Source: Stigmatella erecta (GTDB lineage Bacteria; Myxococcota; Myxococcia; Myxococcales; Myxococcaceae). Taken from it: 64,000 nucleotides of DNA. The position numbers and the translations under genes were made by a program. Positions within the stretch are counted from its first letter, which is position 1. Each line of letters begins with the position of its first letter. The notes under the pieces are model-generated. The model was not told the DNA's origin, searched no databases, and saw nothing but the letters and a program-made list of their open reading frames with translations. Location of the stretch: assembly GCF_900111745.1 (NCBI RefSeq), contig NZ_FOIJ01000021.1:62001-126000 (forward strand). Direction: 5' to 3'. This document shows, one piece after another, positions 2,926 to 6,421 of this stretch.

Positions 2926-3026
2926 CGCGGGGCCGCGCAAGCCCTCCCCTCCCGAAGTGCAGGCGCTCCCGGGAAGCCGTCCCGGAGAGCGGGCTGCCGG
3001 GCGAGCGTTCGCTGCACGTGTGGGAT

Positions 3027-3052
3027 TTGCTGGCCACGTTCCCGGCCAGCAA
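3027..3052 (+). promoter_or_regulatory. Leader hairpin upstream of lipoprotein gene
   Basis: A perfect 9-bp stem (TTGCTGGCC / GGCCAGCAA) with an 8-nt loop lies about 40 bp before the ATG of the next gene and before its GGGAG ribosome binding site. It is not followed by a T-run, so it is more likely an mRNA-stabilising or regulatory structure than a terminator. Its role is inferred only. Confidence 0.35.
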
Positions 3053-3090: not shown

Positions 3091-3600
3091 ATGAAGAACC
3101 TCAAGACCAAGGCACTGGTGGCGGGACTGCTGGCGGGGACGTTGACGTTCGTGGGATGTAAGTCGAACAGCTCCATGGACCGTCCGGAAAGCACCACCAC
3201 GCCCGCGACGGACACCATGTCGACCCCGCCCGCGACCGACAGCACGGGGACGACCGGGACGACGGCCACGCCTCCGGGCACGGGCGGCTCCGGCAGCGAG
3301 ACGCGGCCCTCCGACGACAACCTGCGCATGCCGGAAGAGGATCCGCTGCGCACACCCGGGAACGAGAGCATCCGCGACTCCGAGATGGAGCCGGGCATCC
3401 ACCATGACACCGGCACGGACCTGGGCCCGGGCACCGGCGGCGCCGGCCTGGACAACGGCATCATGGACGACGAGAACCTGAACGAGGCCGGCAATGCCCC
3501 CGAGGGCGTCCGTCTGCCGGATTCGACCACGGACTCGTCCCTGTCGCCGAATGACGCCACGATCGAGCACGACGTGGAGTCGGCCGAAGGGGCCCGCTAG
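3091..3600 (+). CDS. Small Thr/Ser/Gly-rich lipoprotein, unknown function
   Basis: This 169-residue protein is probably a secreted lipoprotein. A short basic N-terminus and a hydrophobic stretch end in a lipobox-like FVGC (Cys at about residue 23). The mature part is low complexity: a Thr/Pro/Gly-rich stretch, then acidic and Asn/Asp-rich sequence with no recognisable domain. The ATG has a GGGAG site 7 bases upstream, and a strong terminator follows the stop, so it is a single-gene transcript. Such disordered lipoproteins are common in myxobacteria, but I cannot name a family. Confidence 0.75.
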   Translation: MKNLKTKALVAGLLAGTLTFVGCKSNSSMDRPESTTTPATDTMSTPPATDSTGTTGTTATPPGTGGSGSETRPSDDNLRMPEEDPLRTPGNESIRDSEMEPGIHHDTGTDLGPGTGGAGLDNGIMDDENLNEAGNAPEGVRLPDSTTDSSLSPNDATIEHDVESAEGAR

Positions 3601-5454: not shown

Positions 5455-6234
5455 TTACTTCTTCATGCCCGGCGGCGTGGCCTTGTTCATGTCATTGGCG
5501 CCGGTGGAGCCAGGCGTCCCCTTCATGTCGTTGGCGCCGGGGGTCCCCTTCATGTCGTTGGCGCCGGTGCCCATGTTGTGGTTCATGTGCGTATCGCCCG
5601 AGCCGCCCACGCCGCTGGGCTGCGGGGCCAGCTTGCCGAGCACGGTGTAGGCCTGCTGACGGTGCATGGCCACGTGCTGCGCGTTCTCGTTGATGAGCGC
5701 CAGGGCCTCGGCGTTACCGCTGAAGGCCTGCTGGCCCGCGGCCAGCTTGCCGAGCACCATGTCATGGGCGCCGAGCTGGTTGGCCATATAGGCCGAATCG
5801 AACGGCGCGCCCTTGAGCGCCTGGAGCTTCTCCGCGGAGGCCTTGTCCGCGGCCATGGCCTTCTTCTCCACGTCGTTCATCGGCTTGGGGTCGGCCAGCT
5901 TCAGGTTCTTGCCCTTCGCGTAGGTCATCAGCTTCTCGTCCGCGGCGGTGTGCTCCTGCACCATCTGGCTGCCAAAGGACTTCACGTCTGGGCTCTGAGC
6001 ATTCTGCTGGGCCAGTTGGCCCAGTTTGATCTCTTGCTGGTTCGCATGGTGGAGCCGCTCGAGATAAGCCTTCTCATCCGAGGGAACGATGACGCCCATG
6101 TGCTCGACCGTGCCCTTGGCACCGGCCTTACCTGCCTTGGCGGCGGCCACCGGGGCGGTGGTGCTCTGGGCCAATGCGGCGGAACCACAAACCAGGGAAC
6201 CAGCAATGACGAGGCTCTGAAGGGTGCGCTTCAT
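5455..6234 (-). CDS. DUF4142 family exported protein
   Basis: A 259-residue secreted protein with a clear signal peptide (MKRTLQSLVIAGSLVCGSAALAQ). It then has a four-helix DUF4142-type domain, seen as ANQQEIKLGQLAQQNAQSPDV, FGSQMVQEHTAADEKL and later His-containing helices, in line with the ferritin-like fold predicted for the family. The C-terminal tail is low complexity and repeats GANDMKGTP with variations. The family's role is not established, though members are often linked to envelope stress. The start at 6234 is supported by the signal peptide and an AAAGGA binding site. The leader contains two competing hairpins (separate entry). Confidence 0.85.
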   Translation of the reverse strand: MKRTLQSLVIAGSLVCGSAALAQSTTAPVAAAKAGKAGAKGTVEHMGVIVPSDEKAYLERLHHANQQEIKLGQLAQQNAQSPDVKSFGSQMVQEHTAADEKLMTYAKGKNLKLADPKPMNDVEKKAMAADKASAEKLQALKGAPFDSAYMANQLGAHDMVLGKLAAGQQAFSGNAEALALINENAQHVAMHRQQAYTVLGKLAPQPSGVGGSGDTHMNHNMGTGANDMKGTPGANDMKGTPGSTGANDMNKATPPGMKK

Positions 6235-6243
6235 GTGGATTCT

Positions 6244-6275
6244 TCCTTTGGGAAAAGGACGCCCCGGAGGCGTCC
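6244..6275 (-). promoter_or_regulatory. Leader with two competing hairpins before the DUF4142 gene
   Basis: Read along the mRNA, a 7-bp perfect stem (GGACGCC / GGCGTCC, 6275 to 6257) is followed directly by TTTTCCC. The last three bases of its 3' arm (TCC) also start a second hairpin, TCCTTT-TCCC-AAAGGA (6259 to 6244), which pairs with the Shine-Dalgarno sequence. The two structures share bases, so they cannot both form fully. This layout suits an attenuator or a translation switch, but no ligand or protein partner is evident. Confidence 0.45.
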
Positions 6276-6421
6276 GCTGAAAAAAACAGGGCTGCACTTT
6301 CGTCTGTGAAAACGTTGGGCACACGCGAATTGAGGCTTCGGCGTCTGGCGTACGACGATGGCGGGGCCGGATGTTTTCAGCACCCGACACTGCCCCTGTA
6401 CGCCAGGGAGGGGCACGGCCG

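Follow-up and report, generated by a model that had tools for sequence, protein, structure and literature searches.

A probably conserved hairpin beside the ribosome binding site of a DUF4142 gene in Stigmatella-type and Hyalangium-type genomes

The short leader of a DUF4142 gene in the window (the whole stretch of 64,000 nucleotides analysed here, part of a genome of 9.2 Mb) contains a GC-rich hairpin, hairpin 1, located 7 nt ahead of the Shine–Dalgarno sequence (SD). Comparison of ortholog leaders points, with moderate confidence, to a conserved RNA stem shared by two myxobacterial clades and traced in eight genomes. The hairpin may represent a clade-restricted 5'-UTR element adjacent to the ribosome binding site (RBS), acting passively to tune ribosome loading or the stability of the mRNA; we give this role about an even chance of being correct. 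It seems to be a modest, local element, not a new class of RNA regulator, since the leader displays no sign of on/off switching. If functional, it would offer a simple, testable leader hairpin before an exported DUF4142 protein, with a position that is conserved while the sequence is rebuilt.

The DUF4142 gene and its leader

The following features were recognized at this locus:

5455..6234, minus strand: DUF4142 gene, 259 aa, ATG at 6234; PF13628 match of 92.9 bits (E 2.7e-26); start kept in orthologs.
6242..6249, minus strand: SD, AAAGGAAG; duplex with the anti-SD of -5.8 kcal/mol; AAAGGAAR kept in 4/4 Stigmatella-type genomes.
6257..6275, minus strand: hairpin 1, GGACGCCU-CCG-GGGCGUCC; seven Watson–Crick pairs and an inner U-G (8 pairs).
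6287..6297, minus strand: box GTGCAGCCCTG, which is how the GTGCGCnCCCG box of most myxobacterial DUF4142 leaders reads in Stigmatella.

The start at 6234 is backed by the signal-peptide-like N-terminus of the encoded protein (MKRTLQSLVIAGSLVCGSAALAQ), by a suitably spaced SD, and by conservation among orthologs. On the minus strand, the leader reads from 6297 to 6232 as GTGCAGCCCTG-TTTTTTTCAGC-GGACGCCTCCGGGGCGTCC-TTTTCCC-AAAGGAAG-AATCCAC-ATG. The reading frame stays open further upstream of the ATG. Two-base indels among relatives, found between the box and the hairpin and again ahead of the ATG, indicate that the leader is non-coding.

The letters of hairpin 1 are GGACGCC-TCCGG-GGCGTCC (GGACGCCTCCGGGGCGTCC, 6275-6257), followed by TTTTCCC. 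These two arms with TTTT behind them had been described in the original prediction and are read directly from the minus strand. In DNA, the element is a near-perfect palindrome and is found on both strands. Hairpin 1 alone has a folding energy of -14.6 kcal/mol and an ensemble probability of approximately 0.97. The z-score for the single sequence is -1.77, and 11 of 200 shuffles fold equally well. About 20% of 61 neighbouring gene leaders (genes of the surrounding 81-kb stretch, with starts picked by a simple script) possess a hairpin of -14 kcal/mol or lower within 65 nt of the start, so that the presence of hairpin 1 alone is unremarkable.

The same genome encodes further DUF4142 paralogs. 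The leader region of one of them, L168, has no similar hairpin in the part read; the start call of another, L169, is uncertain. Titles and abstracts of the literature mentioning DUF4142 gave no lead on this leader and described no leader RNA for the family.

Searches with Rfam at gathering score returned no match in 10 ortholog loci, including the window copy (L006). A permissive Rfam scan of the window gave only one match with E=4.4, on the opposite strand, and none for fourU. The covariance model R1 matches only the DUF4142 locus, with no second genomic copy, and a pattern search for TTYATCGRMCG yielded scattered, uninformative matches. The idea of a regulon-wide element was rejected because R1 finds a single site and, of the loci read, none offered a convincing further non-coding occurrence of the box motif.

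Conservation and covariation of hairpin 1

Approximately 49 distinct ortholog leaders were collected. Eight of them were compared in detail: four of the Stigmatella type (the window, G003, G005, which we take to be a Stigmatella aurantiaca-type genome, and G004) and four of the Hyalangium type (G002, G006, which is Hyalangium versicolor, G001, and G020). The hairpins at the matching place in the former, and the core arms in the latter, are as follows:

G003: GGACGCC-uuugc-GGCGCCC, with one A-C mismatch.
G005: GGACGUCU-ucc-AGACGUCC.
G004: GGACGUCU-ucc-AGACGUUC.
G002: GACCGU/GCGGUC.
G006: GACCGC/GCGGUC.
G001: GACCGC/GCGGUC.
G020: GACCGUGG/CCACGGUC.

The Hyalangium-type hairpins follow a TTTTCATC-like stretch and are located 6-9 nt ahead of the SD; they have a far longer loop and different stem letters. 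Accordingly, the distance between the core arms is 7 nt in one clade versus approximately 29-34 nt in the other. G-U states occur at stem pairs in L009 and L014, and one pair is broken (A-C) in L007.

In the four Stigmatella-type leaders alone, 93.8% of the hairpin-1 cells are paired and one change is both-sided, values that are reached by 90 of 500 shuffles and do not exceed this control. With all eight leaders and the loops cut out, 97.9% of the core cells (47/48) are paired, and three of the six pairs have changed on both sides. None of 500 shuffles reached the pairing percentage or the covariation score, part of which was selected for because the Hyalangium-type hairpin was aligned by position and pairing; slid registers gave 23-50%. 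In neutral simulations on the protein tree that began with a perfect stem, 47/48 pairings were never retained together with three double changes (20,000 runs x five rates).

Since pairing was one of the criteria used to select the Hyalangium-type hairpin, an additional control was run with a fixed 5' arm. When the 3' arm was demanded beside the SD, shuffles matched the observed helix in 0.15-4.5% per genome, a procedure that corrects the selection only in part. In a small neighbour control, nine leaders could be aligned across the four Stigmatella-type genomes; of their hairpins, hairpin 1 was the only one paired in more than 90% of cells at low leader identity (0.58); two better-paired hairpins sit in one leader of 0.83 identity.

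The original prediction had called for covariation in both stems. It was found in the first stem (three of six core pairs, eight genomes). The second stem, that of the SD-side hairpin 2, is paired in 79% of cells in the four Stigmatella-type leaders, with no both-sided change.

The SD-side hairpin, alternative explanations and the proposed role

Two registers of hairpin 2 have to be distinguished:

6244..6259, minus strand: register of the original prediction, UCCUUU-UCCC-AAAGGA; letters present, ensemble probability 0.01, predicted to be negligible.
6241..6256, minus strand: shifted register, UUUUCC-CAAA-GGAAGA; predicted, weak, overlapping the SD, not conserved, compatible with hairpin 1.

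The original prediction regarded the leader as regulatory, with a terminator or anti-SD switch operating between two mutually exclusive hairpins. The strings behind this idea exist. TCCTTT-TCCC-AAAGGA is present at 6259-6244, its first three bases are common with hairpin 1, and four U stand right after hairpin 1. However, the exclusive register is only 1% probable. The energies of the two registers are the same (-4.4 kcal/mol for each), and the shifted one attains an ensemble probability of 0.79-0.96. The latter has no base in common with hairpin 1; the two therefore form together and are not mutually exclusive. Their combination is the minimum-free-energy fold, with -19.0 kcal/mol together, versus -10.8 kcal/mol for the exclusive alternative composed of the noted SD hairpin and a shortened hairpin 1. 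The RBS had also been thought to be hidden by the hairpin. Opening of the SD costs 4.6 kcal/mol, an average value that ranks at the 39th percentile when compared with 61 gene starts of the 81 kb around the locus; by this ordinary cost and the fold probabilities, the SD is neither unusually hidden nor swapped between hairpins. The terminator-like character of hairpin 1 was not borne out either: the U-tract is not kept in relatives (at the corresponding place, leader L008 of the S. aurantiaca type reads CCCUCUUCG), and a terminator pattern scan, which needs five T in eight, does not list the hairpin. A transcription attenuator or intrinsic terminator was rejected on the grounds of this U-tract loss and because no alternative fold has comparable stability. 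Attenuators with intrinsic terminators likewise have a short U-run directly behind a GC-rich leader stem, but only four U occur here, they are interrupted in relatives, and there is no comparably stable anti-terminator. As the S. aurantiaca-type genome has lost the U-tract and the SD stem is not kept, we consider a switch between exclusive hairpins extremely improbable. What stands of the predicted new cis-acting element is a cis-located structured element with no Rfam family; its reading as a regulatory switch fails. A related possibility is an RNA thermometer. In the fourU motif, a two-hairpin layout places four U across from the SD region (PMC10586365), and the window leader likewise has two hairpins, the second with four U facing the SD region. 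Hairpin 1 would then be the stable scaffold and UUUUCC-CAAA-GGAAGA the SD stem that melts, comparable to the layout of agsA and blyA. Unlike in those thermometers, the layout with four U is not conserved in relatives; the leader has no Rfam match at gathering score and no fourU match in the window, and lacks predicted melting in the physiological range, the predicted unpaired probability of the SD barely changing (0.20 at 15 C, 0.23 at 48 C). The four U paired with the SD in the window sequence are absent in L008, and the helix is devoid of covariation. A fourU-like thermometer is therefore highly unlikely.

Hairpin 1 could also be a chance hairpin of a GC-rich leader, functionless and kept through shared descent. 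The z-score of only -1.77, the equally stable hairpins in approximately 20% of the 61 local leaders, and the absence of such a stem from Archangium, Myxococcus, and Pyxidicoccus-type orthologs agree with this explanation. Yet 47/48 pairings are kept with three double changes across two clades, an outcome never seen in neutral simulation, and we consider chance rather unlikely. The near-perfect palindrome in DNA could alternatively be an inverted repeat serving as a putative transcription factor site, with an incidental RNA hairpin; orthologs from other genera do bear other upstream inverted repeats, such as CGTGCG-n4-CGCACG in Archangium-like leaders. However, the spacing of the half-sites is very different between the clades while pairing is retained, G-U states are present, and the genome has no second copy (R1 matches one site). 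The G-U states and the clade-dependent arm distance fit RNA pairing better than a DNA operator of fixed spacing, which makes an operator improbable.

The preferred reading, passive tuning by an RBS-adjacent hairpin, supposes that the GC-rich hairpin (6275-6257) folds just 5' of the RBS in a short DUF4142 5' UTR; its location inside the transcript is assumed. The folded leader segment may hinder RNase entry, and the hairpin may keep the RBS free of pairing with the U/C-rich leader. The mRNA lifetime or ribosome loading would thereby be set at a fixed level, and hairpin 1 would exert no ligand-, temperature- or transcription-controlled switching. A switch, a thermometer, or a regulon element is not invoked, because a conserved U-tract, a competing fold, unusual SD occlusion, a predicted temperature response, an Rfam match, and a second copy were all missing from the leaders and genome analysed.

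The classic 5'-UTR mRNA-stabilising stem-loop is that of ompA. Stem-loops in 5' UTRs also stabilise the mRNAs of recA in A. baumannii and vacA in H. pylori (PMC7509114). Like the latter two, hairpin 1 is a stable stem-loop situated 5' of the SD within a short leader. It differs in being only 7 nt from the SD and has no sequence relation to them. One feature that characterizes such stabilising elements, a stable and structurally conserved leader stem-loop, was found in hairpin 1, given its assumed place within the transcript.

The upstream box, leaders of other genera and other repeats

The (CCAAn)GTGCGCnCCCG box is located approximately 35-90 nt ahead of the DUF4142 start in most Myxococcaceae (L006-L035, L103-L122), and GTGCGCnCCC is the single feature common to most DUF4142 leaders across clades. 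Outside the DUF4142 leaders that contain it, the exact motif CCAASGTGCGCGCCCG is found mostly in apparent coding sequence. The conserved block of the Hyalangium-type leaders begins sharply at the box, which is a candidate promoter-proximal or 5'-end element.

A closing stem is predicted by the consensus fold of each of three clades whose leader interiors are unrelated. The segment from the box to the ATG might therefore be imagined as one RNA domain in many Myxococcaceae, in which base pairing of the box to the SD and to the GCAC ahead of the ATG closes the clade-specific hairpins, and which controls DUF4142 translation upon a protein or metabolite signal. We consider this very unlikely. A long-range GUGC/GCAC stem around the SD is not claimed, because matched leader pairs (-8.98) performed no better than swapped ones (-9.11).

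RBS-adjacent hairpins come and go between genera, as judged from their differing presence and absence clade by clade; several genus names of the leader groups were inferred from the grouping. In Corallococcus, the DUF4142 leaders contain a GGACC...GGTCC-type hairpin that follows the box and, approximately 5 nt ahead of the SD, a GCCTC...GAGGC hairpin. The Corallococcus hairpins (L021, L022, L024, L025, L028, L030, L031, L103, L104, L110-L112, L118, and L120) appear to have changed stems and shifted bulges, which automatic alignment missed. The g12 leaders have GCGGCCU-CGC-AGGUCGC ahead of the SD. No comparable stem was seen in the DUF4142 leaders of Archangium, Myxococcus, and Pyxidicoccus type. 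The inverted repeat CGTGCG-n4-CGCACG lies 5' of the box, at a distance of roughly 85-110 nt from the DUF4142 start, in L010-L013, L015, L017-L019, L027, and others (Archangium-like or related leaders), and is possibly an operator.

Two further repeats were noticed in the window. The perfect inverted repeat TTGCTGGCC-acgttccc-GGCCAGCAA (approximately 3026-3051, plus strand) is located some 40-65 nt ahead of a small lipoprotein-like ORF (3091-3600); in the three further genomes of Stigmatella type, its pairing is not kept (56% of cells). A nine-base inverted repeat, CTGGCGTAC...GTACGCCAG (6398-6406 with 6345-6353, minus strand), lies between the upstream gene and the DUF4142 gene. It is nearly kept in L007, and L008 contains the differently placed, similar-lettered AACGCCAG...CTGGCGTT.
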